This document shows, in pieces, positions 1-27,296 of a stretch of DNA of 36,091 nucleotides. The stretch is from Tissierellia bacterium (GTDB lineage: Bacteria > Bacillota > Clostridia > Tissierellales > Sedimentibacteraceae): NCBI GenBank assembly GCA_012519555.1, contig JAAYPY010000027.1, forward strand, positions 1-36,091. The letters run 5' to 3'. Made by a program: the position numbers and the translations under genes. Below the pieces are notes generated by a model. That model made no database searches, was not told the DNA's origin, and was given only the letters and a program-made list of their open reading frames with translations. How positions within the stretch are numbered: position 1 is the stretch's first letter; each line of letters begins with the position of its first letter.

Positions 1-1709
1 ACATTGGGATTAATCATTTAACATTATTGCCCTATTATGAACAATTTGAGGTTGAACCATCAGACATTATATTATCTATAGTGCCTACACCTTTAAAAAA
101 CATCACAAATAAAAGAATAATCTATGTGAAATTCAGTGACCTGAATATATATACATTAATGAAGATATTTGTAGAATTAAAACTGACATCAGATAAGTTA
201 ATTCCAATACTAAAAAAATATACTGAATATATGTCTCTTTCTAATCACCACATGGCTATGATGAACCAGAATTTACAGGGAATTTTAGAAATAGTATCAG
301 AAGGTATCCTATGTATAGATAAAAATGAAAATACTATATTCTGCAACAAGTCATTTTCGGAATTATTAGATATTGACTATCATGAATTGTTATCGAAAAA
401 CTATAAAGAAATTGAATTTGAACAATGCTTAAAAAATATTATATACAAAAAAGATGATGTTTTATATGAAGTAATAAACTATAAAGATAAAAAACTACTT
501 GTGACAAAACTTAATTTACCTAATAGTCTTAAGGGATTCATTTTAAATATCCAAAAAGTATCGCATATACAAGCAGTAGAATCAAATGTAAGAAAGAAAC
601 TTATGGATAAAGGTTTTACAGCTAAATATTCTTTTGAAAATATAATTGGGGAAAGTGCTATAATAAAGTCTAAAATAAATGAAGCTAAAAAAATTGCAAA
701 GAGCAACTTTGCAGTGTTGATACAAGGAGACAATGGAACAGGAAAGGAAATGTTTGCTCAAGCAATACATAACGGATCTACGAGGGCACATGGACCTTTT
801 ATAGCCATTAATTTAGCATCCCTTCCGGACAACCTTGTTGAAAGTGAATTATTCGGTTATGAAGAAGGCTCTTTTACAGGAGCTGTTAAAGGCGGTAAAG
901 CAGGATTATTTGAATTAGCACATAATGGAACAATATTTATTGATGAAATAGGAGATATTTCTCTTCATATTCAGCAAAGGCTATTACGTGTGCTGCAAGA
1001 AAAGGAAATCATGCGAATTGGAGCAAATAAGATTATTCCAATAGATGTTAGAGTTATTTCAGCTACAAACAAAGATCTTTATTCTCTTGTTGAAAAGGGC
1101 AAATTCAGAAAGGATCTATATTACAGGCTGAAGGTCTTATATATTAACCTTCCTAACTTAAACAGCAGATCCGAGGATATTCCTTTATTTGCCAGATACT
1201 TTTTTGATAACCTTAACAGTACAAAATATTTTAATAATGATTCTATCAGCATACTCAAAAGATATTCTTGGGCTGGTAATGTCAGAGAGCTTCAGAATCT
1301 AATTTACTATTTAGAAACACTATGTGATACTGATGAGATAACGCCAGACGATATTCCTGATGAATTTAAAATAAATATGGATTTAAAATCATCATATAAC
1401 ATTGAATTTGAGAATGTGCTGTCCAATTACAAAGAATCTACTATCAGGGAGTTTCATGTAATACTTAATAGTCTCTATGCAGCCTATACAGAAAAGTCCT
1501 CAATGGGCAAAACCGCTATTTGTAGATTGATGAATAATTTAGGTATTGAAATTTCAGTTGAACAGGTTCGCCACAGACTTTCAAAACTTAGCTGCCATGG
1601 ATTTATCAATGTTGGTAAAACAAAACAAGGAAGTAAAATAACACAAAACGGTATTTTGTTTTTAAATTATATAGATATTAAATTAAGGAAAGAGAATTAT
1701 CATAAATAA
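1..1709 (+). CDS. Sigma-54-dependent transcriptional regulator (PAS + AAA+ sigma-54 interaction domain), 5' end truncated by window
   Basis: Walker A-like GDNGTGKE, GSFTGA (GAFTGA-like) motif, FIDEIGD Walker B, WAGNVRELQN. Frame stays open upstream of the predicted TTG start to the window edge (..IGINHLTLLPYYEQF). Confidence 0.93.
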   Translation, partial: IGINHLTLLPYYEQFEVEPSDIILSIVPTPLKNITNKRIIYVKFSDLNIYTLMKIFVELKLTSDKLIPILKKYTEYMSLSNHHMAMMNQNLQGILEIVSEGILCIDKNENTIFCNKSFSELLDIDYHELLSKNYKEIEFEQCLKNIIYKKDDVLYEVINYKDKKLLVTKLNLPNSLKGFILNIQKVSHIQAVESNVRKKLMDKGFTAKYSFENIIGESAIIKSKINEAKKIAKSNFAVLIQGDNGTGKEMFAQAIHNGSTRAHGPFIAINLASLPDNLVESELFGYEEGSFTGAVKGGKAGLFELAHNGTIFIDEIGDISLHIQQRLLRVLQEKEIMRIGANKIIPIDVRVISATNKDLYSLVEKGKFRKDLYYRLKVLYINLPNLNSRSEDIPLFARYFFDNLNSTKYFNNDSISILKRYSWAGNVRELQNLIYYLETLCDTDEITPDDIPDEFKINMDLKSSYNIEFENVLSNYKESTIREFHVILNSLYAAYTEKSSMGKTAICRLMNNLGIEISVEQVRHRLSKLSCHGFINVGKTKQGSKITQNGILFLNYIDIKLRKENYHK

Positions 1710-3674: not shown

Positions 3675-4097
3675 TTATTTTGATGAGCTGCCGCAGCAAC
3701 CGCCTACATCTCCTTCTTTAACCATCAGGGTTTTATCATTTGATATTCTGATAAATCCTATCTTTTCCAAAATTTTTTGAAGGTCTTTATCAGATTCTAT
3801 ATAAGTTTTTTCAGCACCGATGGTAACTGCTTTTCTAACTAAGAGTCTAATAAGCAAATCCTCATAATTTAAACCCTTAAATTGTTTTTTGACACATAAC
3901 ATGTCGATAAAGTACATACCATCTTTAAATAACAGCCTTGCTGTTCCTGCAGGCACATCGTCTACGTATAAAACAGCGTTAAAGGCAAATTCATCATAAA
4001 AGTCGCTTAGTGTATCTGTATCAGCATATACTTCCTTCCTGATACTCAGGACATCGCTTAAGTTATTATTTCCTTGAAACCACCTTGTAGAAATCAT
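3675..4097 (-). CDS. GNAT family N-acetyltransferase-like protein with Gly/Cys C-terminal tail (GGCCGSSSK)
   Basis: GNAT-like fold pattern (VLYVDDVPAGTARLLFKDGMYFIDMLCVKKQFKG...); short Cys-Cys tail. Confidence 0.7.
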   Translation of the reverse strand: MISTRWFQGNNNLSDVLSIRKEVYADTDTLSDFYDEFAFNAVLYVDDVPAGTARLLFKDGMYFIDMLCVKKQFKGLNYEDLLIRLLVRKAVTIGAEKTYIESDKDLQKILEKIGFIRISNDKTLMVKEGDVGGCCGSSSK

Positions 4098-4245: not shown

Positions 4246-4274
4246 TTGAAATAATGATGAATGTGTGTTAATTT
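4246..4274 (+). promoter_or_regulatory. Putative sigma-A promoter of TM1266-ABC operon
   Basis: TTGAAA - 17 nt - TAATTT with TGTGT extended -10 context. Confidence 0.45.
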
Positions 4275-4307
4275 TATAACATATCTAAGCTTAAGGATCT
4301 TCTAAGA

Positions 4308-4366
4308 GCAAGGAATACATTTATTAGTATTAAAGTATTATTCCTTGTGGTGCAAGGAATTTTTTT
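4308..4366 (+). promoter_or_regulatory. Candidate transcription attenuator (mutually exclusive hairpins)
   Basis: Terminator ATTCCTTG(4340-4347)/CAAGGAAT(4353-4360)+T7; competing stem GCAAGGAATA(4308-4317)/TATTCCTTGT(4339-4348). Confidence 0.6.
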
Positions 4367-4378
4367 ATTGAGGTGTAT

Positions 4379-4627
4379 ATGGATAAGAGAATCGGAGTAA
4401 TTGGTATTGTAATTGAAGATACATCCCAAGTTGCCGAAGTGAACAGTCTTCTTCATGAGTATTCTCATATTATTATAGGAAGAATGGGTATCCCTTACAG
4501 GGAGAGAGGTCTTAATGTTATCTCTCTCATTGTTGACGGCACTAATGATGATATAGGAGCTCTTAGCGGAAAGTTAGGCAAAATAAAAGGGCTGAGTGTT
4601 AAAAGTGCTTTGTCCAAAAAACATTAG
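4379..4627 (+). CDS. TM1266-family putative iron-only hydrogenase system regulator (ACT-like)
   Basis: RIGVIGIVIED...VNSLLHEYSHIIIGRMGIPYRERGLNVISLIVDGTNDDIGALSGKLGKIKGLSVKSAL pattern; ATG 4379 preferred over GTG 4373. Confidence 0.85.
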   Translation: MDKRIGVIGIVIEDTSQVAEVNSLLHEYSHIIIGRMGIPYRERGLNVISLIVDGTNDDIGALSGKLGKIKGLSVKSALSKKH

Positions 4628-4635
4628 GAGGCAAT

Positions 4636-5667
4636 ATGAAAAAAATTTGTTTTTTATTGGTGGTACTTTTTGTGCTAAGTTTTACAGCAGGCTGCAGCAA
4701 TGAACCTCAAGAAGCACCGGCACCTGAAAAGCCTGCCGAAGAAACACCCGTGCCAGTTGAAGAGCCGGCAGCTGTTGAACCTGTAAATGTTACAATTGCG
4801 GGGCTTAAGGGGCCTACATCCATTGGTATGATTAAAATGATAGATGAGAAGGCACTGCAAAGTGATAAATACAATGTGGAATACATTCAAGAAGCAGCAC
4901 CTGATTCATTGACGGGAAAAATCATAAACGGCGACATACAAATATCATCTGTTCCCATAAACTTAGCCTCTGTTCTATATAATAAAACTCAAGGCAAGGT
5001 CCAGTTGTTGGCGGTTAATACGATCGGCAATCTATTTATAGTTGGAACTGAGGATATAAACTCTGTCTCACAATTGGATGGCAAAACACTTGGCATGAGT
5101 GCAAAGGGTTCAACTCCGGATTTTGCCATGAATTATATTTTAAAACAAGCAGGACTTGAAGGCAAAACCGAACTGAATTATGTACTTGACCATGCTAGTC
5201 TTGCCCAGTCCGTGATTGCAGAAGATACGACAGTTGCGCTTTTACCTCAGCCTTTTGTGACACAAACTAGGCTGAAAAATCCCAATGTAAAAATTTTAGT
5301 TGATTTAAATGAAGCATGGAATGAAGCAACAGGCGGAAAAAGCGACTTATATACCGGATGTATTGTCATAAATAAAGAGTTTGCAGAAAACAACTCGGAC
5401 TTTGTAAGTGAATTTTTAGAACAGTATGAAAGCTCTGTTAACTGGGTGATGGAAAATCAAAAAGACGCATCTGTATTAGTTGCCAAACATGAAATAATGC
5501 CCGATGCAGCCTTAGTTGAAAAGGCTATTCCAAATTGCGGTATTACATTTAAAAAGGCAAGGGAAGCTAAGTCAGGTTTAAATGACTTTTATCAAATATT
5601 ATTTGATTCAAACCCTGCTTCAGTAGGAGGAAGCATGCCGGATGATGAATTCTATTTTACGGAATAA
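4636..5667 (+). CDS. NitT/TauT-type (NMT1-like) ABC transporter substrate-binding lipoprotein
   Basis: Lipobox FTAGCS; periplasmic binding protein pattern; followed by permease and ATPase. Confidence 0.85.
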   Translation: MKKICFLLVVLFVLSFTAGCSNEPQEAPAPEKPAEETPVPVEEPAAVEPVNVTIAGLKGPTSIGMIKMIDEKALQSDKYNVEYIQEAAPDSLTGKIINGDIQISSVPINLASVLYNKTQGKVQLLAVNTIGNLFIVGTEDINSVSQLDGKTLGMSAKGSTPDFAMNYILKQAGLEGKTELNYVLDHASLAQSVIAEDTTVALLPQPFVTQTRLKNPNVKILVDLNEAWNEATGGKSDLYTGCIVINKEFAENNSDFVSEFLEQYESSVNWVMENQKDASVLVAKHEIMPDAALVEKAIPNCGITFKKAREAKSGLNDFYQILFDSNPASVGGSMPDDEFYFTE

Positions 5668-6391
5668 AAACAAATTATTTATAATACTTTTTTGGATTTT
5701 TATTTGGGAGATACTGTCACTGATAATAGCTCAGGAGATATATCTCCCATCTCCTCATGCTGCATTTTCTTCTCTCATTAATCTGCTGACTTCAAAAGAT
5801 ACCTATATCACCATTTACTACAGCACTTACCGAACATTGGCAGGATTTTTTTTATCTTGTCTTTCAGGCATCTTGTTGGGAATTATATGCGGTATATATA
5901 AGCCCATATACGATTTGTTTAATCCTTTGATAATAATTATGAGAACAATCCCTGTAATGAGTATTATCATTATTGCAATAATATGGTTCAAAGACACCAA
6001 TGTACCTATTTTTGTCGCATTTTTAATGTGCTTTCCAATAATTTGGACTAATACTGTTTCCGGAATCCGTTCAACGGATAATAAGCTGCTTGAAATGTGT
6101 GAAGTTTATAAGATAAAAAAAATAAGAGTAATAAGTTCAGTATATTTATATTCCTCCCTGCCTTACATTCAAGCAGGAATGGTTTCTGCTTTAGGAATAG
6201 GCTGGAAGGTAACTTCCGCAGCGGAAGTTCTAAGTCTTCCCAAATATTCCATCGGGAGATTTTTGTATGATTCCAAGGTATATCTTGAAATCCCGGATTT
6301 ATTTGCCTGGACGATTATTATTGTTTCTCTGAGCTTTTTGTTTGAAACTCTGCTTAAAACTGTTTTTAGTTCTGGAGATAAAAATGATTAA
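5642..6391 (+). CDS. ABC transporter permease (NitT/TauT family)
   Basis: Multi-TM protein with a BPD-type loop (SSVYLYSSLPYIQAGMVSALGIGWKVTSAAEVLSLP). Confidence 0.88.
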   Translation: MMNSILRNKNKLFIILFWIFIWEILSLIIAQEIYLPSPHAAFSSLINLLTSKDTYITIYYSTYRTLAGFFLSCLSGILLGIICGIYKPIYDLFNPLIIIMRTIPVMSIIIIAIIWFKDTNVPIFVAFLMCFPIIWTNTVSGIRSTDNKLLEMCEVYKIKKIRVISSVYLYSSLPYIQAGMVSALGIGWKVTSAAEVLSLPKYSIGRFLYDSKVYLEIPDLFAWTIIIVSLSFLFETLLKTVFSSGDKND

Positions 6392-7049
6392 ATTAGTTGA
6401 TGTTACTAAAAAATATGATGACCTGATTTTATTGCAGGATTTTAACATTAGTTTTGAAAAGAATAAAATAACGTGTTTATTTGGCCCTTCAGGTGTTGGA
6501 AAAACAACAATTGCAAATATTGTGGCAGGAATAGTTCCTGTTGACAGGGGTTTTGTGGAAGGTATCGACAACTCATTGTTTTCCTATGTTTTTCAGGAAC
6601 CGCGCCTTCTTAAATGGTACAATGTATATGAAAATATTGATTTTGTACTGAAGGATGTTTATGAACCTGAAAAAAGGGTAGATACAATTAATTCTTATTT
6701 AAAAATGGTCGAATTAAGCCAATATAAAAATTATAAAATTGATGCATTAAGCGGCGGTATGGCTCAAAGGGTATCTTTGGCAAGGGCTTTTGCTTATCCG
6801 TCACATATACTGATTATGGATGAACCCTTTAAAGGTCTTGATATTAAACTTAAAAATGAAATGAGCTCCTTGTTTATAAAAATGTGGAGCCTTAGTCAAA
6901 GAACGGTAATTTTTATAACTCATGATGTCGAGGAAGCAATTAATTTGTCACATGTTATTTATACTTTAAAAAACAGACCCGTCGATATTGTTGATAGAAT
7001 AATCGTTAATAATAAAGAAGAAATAAAAAACCTGCTTCTAAACCTTTAA
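6384..7049 (+). CDS. ABC transporter ATP-binding protein (NitT/TauT family)
   Basis: GPSGVGKTT Walker A, LSGGMAQRVSLARAFAYPSHILIMDEPFKGLD; ATG at 6384 preferred over upstream start. Confidence 0.92.
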   Translation: MIKLVDVTKKYDDLILLQDFNISFEKNKITCLFGPSGVGKTTIANIVAGIVPVDRGFVEGIDNSLFSYVFQEPRLLKWYNVYENIDFVLKDVYEPEKRVDTINSYLKMVELSQYKNYKIDALSGGMAQRVSLARAFAYPSHILIMDEPFKGLDIKLKNEMSSLFIKMWSLSQRTVIFITHDVEEAINLSHVIYTLKNRPVDIVDRIIVNNKEEIKNLLLNL

Positions 7050-7174: not shown

Positions 7175-7447
7175 ATGAATATTGAAATAACCGACAGAGC
7201 AAAAGAGATGCTTTTGTTGATGAAAGAAAAAAATATACCCATTACTTTAATGAAATATCCGGTGGGATGAGCAGGCTTTAAATACAAAATTGTTTCGTCG
7301 AAACAAAAGGAAAATGATAAGTTGTATAATGTTGACGGTATTGATATAATAGTTTCCGGAGACAGCGAATTTGAATTGAAGGGTGCAAAGATTGATTTTG
7401 GCGGACTGTTATTCAAGGATTTTATTGTATCTCCAAAATTCTCATAA
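7175..7447 (+). CDS. HesB/IscA-like selenoprotein with in-frame UGA (Sec) at 7268-7270
   Basis: Reading through UGA gives MNIEITDRAKEMLLLMKEKNIPITLMKYPVG-U-AGFKYKIVSSKQKENDKLYNVDGIDIIVSGDSEFELKGAKIDFGGLLFKDFIVSPKFS*. U aligns with the first conserved Cys of IscA (GC-SG-xxY). ATG has an upstream GGAGG. Confidence 0.85.
7290..7306 (+). promoter_or_regulatory. Candidate bacterial SECIS hairpin
   Basis: TTGTTTC-GTC-GAAACAA perfect hairpin; apical loop begins with G, 26 nt after the UGA. Confidence 0.7.
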
Positions 7448-19999: not shown

Positions 20000-20237
20000 A
20001 TTAAAAAAAACGGGTTTTCTCCATCAAAAGGACGAGAAAACCCGCGGTACCACCTAATTTCCATTACGGCTCTTTAACTATATAACGGTAATCCGTTTAA
20101 TCTTACTGTTACTTCAGATTAAATGCTCAAAAGCTACCTTCAGCACACATCGACCTATGAAACCTTTCATCCGGTGGATTTCACTCTCTGGAAGGTTTAT
20201 GTACTTACTCCTCTTTTTCATCGCAAATATTTAATTA
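20000..20237 (-). ncRNA. T-box leader (valine) of valS
   Basis: AGGTGGTACCGCGGG T-box; specifier GAAGGTAGC (GTA=Val); terminator GGGTTTTCTCGTCC..GGAGAAAACCC+T8; TTGACA-17-TAATAT promoter. Confidence 0.9.
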
Positions 20238-21199: not shown

Positions 21200-21244
21200 C
21201 AATATCTATTTAATGTAATATACTTAACTAAATTAAACATTTTC

Positions 21245-21522
21245 GATATTGGTGCGCAGAAATGCGATAATAGGGAATCAGGTTAAAATCCTGAACAGTC
21301 CTGCTGCCGTAATGAGTGAGCGGTTTTTATGCTTTAAGCAACCACTGGAATCTCCGGGAAGGTAAAAACTTGCGATGACCTCTGAGTCGGAAAACCTGCC
21401 AGTATTATTTGCGTAGATACCGCAAATGCTATGCTTTACAGAGGATAATAGCGATAGCGCATAAAAATTGGTTAATCCAAAACATTTGTGGAATTTACGT
21501 TTCGGGAACGAGACGTTTTTTT
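21245..21522 (+). ncRNA. Cobalamin (B12) riboswitch with terminator platform
   Basis: GGTGCGC, GGGAATCAGGTTAAAATCCTGAACAGTCCTGCTGCCGTAA, GGGAAGG, GATGACCTCTGAGTCGGAAAACCTGCC; terminator ACGTTTCG-GGAA-CGAGACGT-TTTTTT (21497-). Confidence 0.95.
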
Positions 21523-27027: not shown

Positions 27028-27296
27028 TTAAAAAATCCGCCTCTGCAAAGAGACGGATTGAAATCCGCGGTTCCACTCAATTTGGCTTTAAGCCCTCTTA
27101 TATAGCACCATCATGCTACTCCATTATAACGGATGGTTCCGCAGCAGCCTACTTAATTCGGTGCTGTACTCCAAAGGGCACTTCACATATACTTCCAATA
27201 AGCATCCTTTCAGCCTTGAGACGCTCTCTCTGCAAATTCGTTATATGCTACTTTCCTTCTTCGCCGTATTTCCTACTAATTTAGTTGGGTATATTT
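27028..27296 (-). ncRNA. T-box leader (cysteine) of cysK-cysE
   Basis: GAGTGGAACCGCGGATTT T-box; specifier GTGAAGTGCCC (TGC=Cys); terminator AATCCGTCTC-TTTGCA-GAGGCGGATTTTTT; TTGCAT-17-TATAAT promoter. Confidence 0.9.

Follow-up and report, generated by a model that had tools for sequence, protein, structure and literature searches.

Layout and folding of the leader

The stretch of DNA analysed here (the window, 36,091 nucleotides from a Tissierellia bacterium) contains an operon that begins with a gene of the TM1266 family and continues with those of an ABC transporter, and an intrinsic terminator sits between its promoter and this first gene, as an attenuator requires. A regulatory role has been suggested for TM1266, but no mechanism has been given. 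The locus raises the question of whether its leader is a regulatory switch, which genes such a switch governs and what operates it.

The probable promoter (4246–4274, + strand) is inferred from TTGAAA at 4246–4251, a 17-bp spacer ending in TGT and TAATTT at 4269–4274, and the arrangement TTGAAA...TGTTAAAT was seen again in relatives. This promoter, already proposed in a preliminary description of the DNA, is plausible by position and conservation and weak by consensus; judged from its position, transcription would start at about 4281. The most conserved part of the leader is a hairpin of 31 nucleotides at 4284–4314 (+), the motif of the covariance models R1–R3 below, which was recognized by comparative conservation and covariation. 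It is composed of a 5′ half-site (4284–4297, TCTAAGCTTAAGGA), a loop (4298–4300) and a 3′ half-site (4301–4314, TCTAAGAGCAAGGA), and is pseudo-two-fold symmetric (UCU-AA-GCUU-AA-GGA / UCU-AA-GAGC-AA-GGA). Segment A (GCAAGGAATA, 4308–4317, +) belongs to the 3′ strand of this hairpin and can alternatively pair, as the 5′ strand of an antiterminator, with segment B, as indicated by sequence, energies and re-matching across loci. Segment B (TATTCCTTGT, 4339–4348, +) serves both as the antiterminator 3′ strand and as the 5′ arm of the terminator (4340–4366, +: stem 4340–4360, loop 4349–4351, seven T at 4360–4366), and the ribosome-binding site of TM1266, GAGGTG, follows in the sequence at 4370–4375 (+). 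On re-check, the coordinates of A, B and the terminator in the preliminary description were exact, but it had begun the element at 4300 and therefore overlooked the 5′ half; the true start is 4284.

The computed energies were −9.5 kcal/mol for the A:B antiterminator, −9.4 for the terminator, −6.5 for the hairpin and −15.9 for hairpin plus terminator, and the latter two (4284–4314 and 4340–4360), which do not overlap, were both present in the minimum-energy fold. Since the 3′ strand of the hairpin carries segment A, hairpin and terminator are compatible, while the A:B antiterminator excludes both. In computed folding of the growing transcript, the hairpin appeared first, A:B pairing was found with the RNA end at about 4345–4354, and hairpin and terminator prevailed together from 4357. 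The full leader was more stable than its shuffles (z = −2.43; 7/200); the truncated leader alone was not (z = −0.86). The terminator pattern by itself was not beyond chance (3 terminator-like sites in 6 kb versus 3.4 expected), so comparison across loci was needed.

Conservation of the hairpin in relatives

An ortholog search with the substrate-binding protein of the transporter over 27 genomes of the source's family (f1) yielded 25 further loci, in most of which TM1266 adjoined the gene of that protein. At the orthologous loci of f1 the stretch TCTRAGCTYAAGG...TCTRAGRGCAAGGA was nearly invariant while the rest of the leader varied, and hairpin, A, B and terminator were retained, with terminator letters differing between loci. 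Altogether the hairpin was conserved at 22 loci of f1 and at 7 of a second family of the same order, f6. In 22 of the 27 f1 genomes model R1 found a single strong copy each (E = 6.8e-13 in the source's own genome), and it found seven copies in f6, where Dethiosulfatibacter aminovorans is one of the motif genomes; these copies preceded the same operon wherever the contig was long enough. The preliminary description had named absence of A, B and C upstream of orthologs as a refutation and a covariance search as a check; the elements proved to be conserved, and the motif was recovered by covariance models upstream of TM1266/ABC operons. The sequences of alignment A1 were too similar for a first covariation count to show changes on both sides of a pair, and it was the distant loci that resolved the matter, the first compensatory changes (G-C to A-U and A-U to G-C) appearing in f6. 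One locus (L010, about 2560–2680, − strand) carries a decayed allele, which has lost the leader between the two copies of GCAAGGAAT as well as most of TM1266 and has a G-to-A change in its hairpin.

By cmscan, no Rfam family reached its gathering score at the motif, either in the window (4284–4366) or at 25 related loci, in line with the earlier remark that the element matches no recognized riboswitch class. No description of the RNA family was found in the open-licence literature; a description behind subscription is possible.

A wider RNA family

A generalized descriptor was set up as CURA-N4-RARG, a loop and YURA-N4-RARG, in which the two N4 pair with each other. With the common letters only (CURA-N4-RARG twice), it gave 53 distinct matches in 1.24 Mb versus 1.3 in shuffled sequence, and relaxed letters gave further matches, so that the motif was matched across Clostridia and in lactobacilli. 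Wider searches with model R2 gave weak matches that were inspected singly and precede TM1266, hydG, hydE, aspA and a hydrogenase NuoE-type gene. The weak matches L069, L073, L075, L077, L079, L082, L088 and L333 were discarded as chance because they fell within coding regions or lacked a suitable context.

The internal-loop letters CURA/RARG hardly varied while the central 4-bp helix did (GCUU/GAGC, UUAC/GUAA, UUGC/GCAA, GAAC/GUUU, CCGC/GCGG, UGAG/CUCA, GUCA/UGAC and others). Alignment A5 (42 sequences) had 106 both-side-changed cells versus 33 in shuffles, with a score of 0.835 versus 0.294. Because pairing had partly been demanded in choosing A5, this count is biased, and the analysis was repeated without that demand: in this fair test, with selection on unpaired and edge letters only, all four central pairs formed in 45 of 67 matches, whereas under the same selection shuffled sequence (ten sets) yielded 37 matches altogether (3.7 per set), a single one of which had four pairs (about 0.1 per set). 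At two conserved pairs the commonest type was G-U (U-G at columns 3–33, G-U at columns 12–24). Comparison of the sequences thus establishes the predicted family hairpin as one of about 30–35 nt in which two CURA-N4-RARG half-sites are inverted relative to each other and each contains an R-A/R-A internal loop, and we have hardly any doubt that the family is real and structured. Tandem motif copies before one gene were seen at L246 (1359–1430), L171 (391–468), L176 (326–400), L240 (686–768) and L150 (3721–3801), the second copy being weak in several of them.

These data bear on two simpler accounts of the leader. That it is an ordinary terminator beside a chance repeat, without any regulation, could be entertained as long as only one locus was considered, since a lone terminator-like site is not unexpected in AT-rich sequence; the 22 conserved loci, the R1 matches and the letter-only pairing test refute this, and its chance of being right is negligible. 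The inverted symmetry and the location just after the promoter would also suit a DNA operator for a transcription factor, the terminator being incidental, but in DNA the conserved G-U pairs would not match, the central helix is exchanged entirely by compensatory changes, and a terminator-like hairpin lies downstream of the motif in 56 of the 57 loci examined. On the grounds of the G-U pairs and the compensatory helix changes we rejected the operator, for which no more than a very small chance is left.

Genes and organisms led by the motif

The genes led by the motif were TM1266, hydG, hydE, hydF, aspA, hydrogenase NuoE/F genes and those of an SsuC-type permease, an ECF S-component and FecCD transporters. 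In NCBIfam searches, HydG (685 bits), HydE (593) and HydF (544) were all over cut-off, as was NuoE (158); aspartate ammonia-lyase (619) was over the subfamily cut-off, and the SsuC-type permease (176 bits) was below cut-off. The organisms include Caloranaerobacter, Peptoclostridium, Fervidicella, Thermoanaerobacter, Acetobacterium, Caldicoprobacter and Thomasclavelia, as well as the lactobacilli Agrilactobacillus and Loigolactobacillus. Judged by sequence comparison alone, the leader belongs to a so far undescribed family of cis-regulatory RNAs in the regulon of [FeFe]-hydrogenase maturation. The earlier proposal of attenuation of this transporter operon was supported in substance but too narrow in scope, since the family also controls the maturation genes. 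To our knowledge, regulation of the costly radical-SAM pathway that makes the CO and cyanide ligands of the H-cluster is largely open.

In Acetobacterium bakii (L346, 2120–4770, − strand) the motif precedes an aspA-hydF operon, which fits aspartate ammonia-lyase as the ammonia source for the azadithiolate bridge. In a lactobacillus (L233, 750–7777), a group A [FeFe]-hydrogenase gene was found near the motif, TM1266, a FecCD transporter, HydE and a NifH-like gene, and related Agrilactobacillus loci (lactobacillus set L233, L342, L195 and L345) carry nitrogenase-component-1-like genes. Neither hydG nor hydF was seen in the examined stretches of these four loci, which possibly reflect an alternative route of H-cluster maturation. 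The motif can serve as a genomic marker for missing parts of the pathway, such as transporters and the lactobacillus variants without hydG nearby.

Inferred mechanism of the switch

Across 56 loci, the terminator 5′ arms paired better with the 3′ strand of their own motif than with those of others (mean −10.3 versus −7.9 kcal/mol, p = 8e-5). This signal emerged with the terminator finder restricted to single hairpins, none being obtained with long branched folds, and individual loci, for example L080, L147, L270 and L322, have no good A:B match. The mutually exclusive A:B and terminator pairings of the preliminary description are supported by this re-matching and by the energies, and its transcription attenuation through A/B/C alternatives gains from the conservation of the elements and from the re-matching of B to A when both change.

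We infer that, without effector, A would pair with B, the terminator would be blocked and the operon would be transcribed; an effector that holds the hairpin would keep A occupied and leave B to pair with C, so that transcription would end at about 4366, amounting to feedback repression. Because hairpin and terminator do not overlap, any stabilizer of the hairpin should promote termination, and the motif probably acts as an OFF switch, the sign being inferred in the absence of termination data. In hydG leaders without a terminator (for example L084–L086, L123 and L194) only a few bases separate the end of the hairpin from the Shine-Dalgarno sequence, which suggests translational control of the same sign: at these genes the hairpin would cover the ribosome-binding site and act on translation instead.

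TM1266 as candidate effector

The first gene behind the motif is most often TM1266, the window's operon included. The protein of the window (4379–4627, +; 82 aa, ACT-like) belongs to this family by TIGR03959 (121 bits; curated cut-off 60.8) and also matches PF21699. Its predicted fold (pLDDT 89) matches the Thermotoga maritima namesake (2nzc) and the sensor domain of the nickel-responsive regulator NikR. TM1266 thus shares the fold of the metal-sensing C-terminal domain of NikR; unlike NikR, it has no ribbon-helix-helix domain or other DNA-binding part in the predicted fold, and no His or Cys is invariant among the aligned members. In the lactobacilli L342 (2337–3428) and L195 (5286–6371), a TM1266-like domain (PF21699) forms the C-terminal part of an ABC ATPase, which is what one would expect if it senses a ligand.

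Among 291 genomes surveyed within the class, TM1266 was present in 38 of the 40 that carry the motif versus 141 of the 251 that do not (p = 3e-7), and where the motif leads hydG, hydE or aspA, TM1266 is usually encoded elsewhere in the same genome. Model R3 gave 39 matches in 80 named TM1266 loci, 38 of them on the sense strand and 32, from 30 of the 80 loci, lying 92–238 nt upstream of the TM1266 start; in 50 of the 80 it found no motif upstream. Of the 25 loci in which the ABC genes are retained, 3 (L021, L023 and L024) have neither TM1266 nor the motif upstream, and L013 has the TM1266 gene without the motif. TM1266 was not found in three motif genomes, G377 (61% complete), G435 (93%) and G262 (97%); sister species of the latter two do have it.

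The symmetry of the RNA, autoregulation and a sensor that is presumably oligomeric and lacks a DNA-binding domain jointly speak for TM1266 as an RNA-binding regulator. The effector would most likely be a TM1266 oligomer, its NikR-like ACT domain sensing a ligand, probably an intermediate or an imported building block of organometallic cofactor assembly; being the first gene of this and many other motif-led operons, TM1266 would regulate itself too. The encoded ACT-like regulator had been suggested as a possible effector before; its co-occurrence with the element is now documented, its identity as effector is not, and without binding data we favour TM1266 only mildly. The same slight preference applies to the view that the leader attenuates the [FeFe]-hydrogenase maturation regulon by feedback, with a TM1266 oligomer as likeliest effector, for which neither binding nor termination data exist. 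We know of no RNA-binding protein of the NikR/ACT type. It is a tentative proposal, and rather doubtful as a whole, that stand-alone TM1266 constitutes a new class of RNA-binding regulator that reads the family governing H-cluster assembly in Firmicutes and senses an organometallic H-cluster precursor, and that the linked ABC, FecCD and ECF transporters import this precursor or a building block. The compact, testable RNA target before hydE, hydF, hydG, aspA and TM1266 offers a direct handle on the mechanism of TM1266, and the motif may supply a natural sensor for an organometallic intermediate.

The arrangement resembles the pyr leaders of PyrR (RF00515), where the regulator is often the first gene and autoregulated and its hairpin is an anti-antiterminator that frees the terminator; the structural alternatives found here fit this by energy and comparison, without protein-binding data. 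The hairpin, however, is unrelated to that of PyrR leaders in sequence and structure (RF00515 was not matched by the leader: 17.4 bits against a gathering score of 54, E = 2.3), the regulon comprises hydrogenase maturation and transporters, and PyrR is a phosphoribosyltransferase whereas TM1266 has the ACT/NikR-like fold.

The main competitor of TM1266 is a small molecule: the hairpin would be a riboswitch that binds one or two ligands in its two R-A/R-A internal loops, for instance an iron-carbonyl-cyanide synthon, another H-cluster precursor or the substrate of the transporter, and TM1266 would have a separate role. As with metabolite riboswitches, a sensor is coupled to terminator and antiterminator, sometimes to Shine-Dalgarno occlusion, and the motif leads pathway genes with several unrelated types of transporter; loop letters that hardly vary beside a varying helix would suit a ligand site, and three motif genomes lack a detected TM1266. 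Such a riboswitch would be a minimal one, with a sensor of about 31 nt, two symmetric sites, only some 16 conserved letters, no junction or pseudoknot seen and no Rfam class match, while its two-fold symmetry suits an oligomeric protein well, and the presence of TM1266 in nearly all motif genomes and its loss together with the motif at three ABC loci also count against it. We consider this reading possible, the lesser part of our belief; it keeps that share because of the three genomes without TM1266, because the association of TM1266 with the motif may run only through hydrogenase, and because an RNA-binding protein of this kind has no known precedent. Another RNA-binding protein, either of the LicT type or a general one, could also bind the hairpin, with TM1266 merely co-regulated. 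Dimeric antiterminators of the LicT/SacY family are known to bind symmetric hairpins of similar size, and the RAT hairpins of LicT, SacY and GlcT are likewise of about 30 nt, near-symmetric, with internal loops and placed before a terminator. A RAT, however, overlaps its terminator and protein binding leads to antitermination, whereas the hairpin of the window is separate from the terminator 5′ arm, can form alongside the terminator and shuts out the antiterminator, and so does not show the overlap asked of a RAT/LicT-type antiterminator. A regulon as narrow as this one, confined to hydrogenase maturation and linked transporters, calls for a specific factor, and no other protein was seen recurring beside the motif, so that a third-party protein is improbable.

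The transporter and other features of the window

The ABC transporter behind TM1266 consists of a lipoprotein substrate-binding protein (NMT1/SsuA-like, 4636–5667), a permease (5642–6391, best NCBIfam matches SaoP-like/SsuC-like, below cut-off) and an ATPase (6384–7049), all on the + strand. The substrate-binding protein is 40% identical to one of A. bakii that lies behind its own motif, the two genomes being distant, and transporters of the SsuC, FecCD and ECF types stand behind the motif in other lineages. In the source's own genome we found hydE and, at the end of a contig, a fragment of hydG. The genome G016 (L344, 97% complete) has the motif, TM1266 and the ABC operon, and no match to hydG or hydE was found in it; the transporter may accordingly serve cells that import a cofactor part they do not make, which is a lead only.

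Elsewhere in the window, a HesB/IscA-like gene (7175–7444, +; PF01521) contains an in-frame TGA at 7268–7270 (YPVG-U-AGFK) and probably encodes a selenoprotein, although a stable SECIS-like hairpin was not evident immediately downstream. A PrdR-like sigma-54 activator is encoded at 27–1709 (+); the gene at 3675–4097 (−), divergent from the operon, encodes a GNAT protein whose tail reads GGCCGSSSK. Three stretches exceeded Rfam thresholds, at 20025–20230 (−), 27046–27273 (−) and 21233–21417 (+), representing two T-box leaders and a cobalamin riboswitch.
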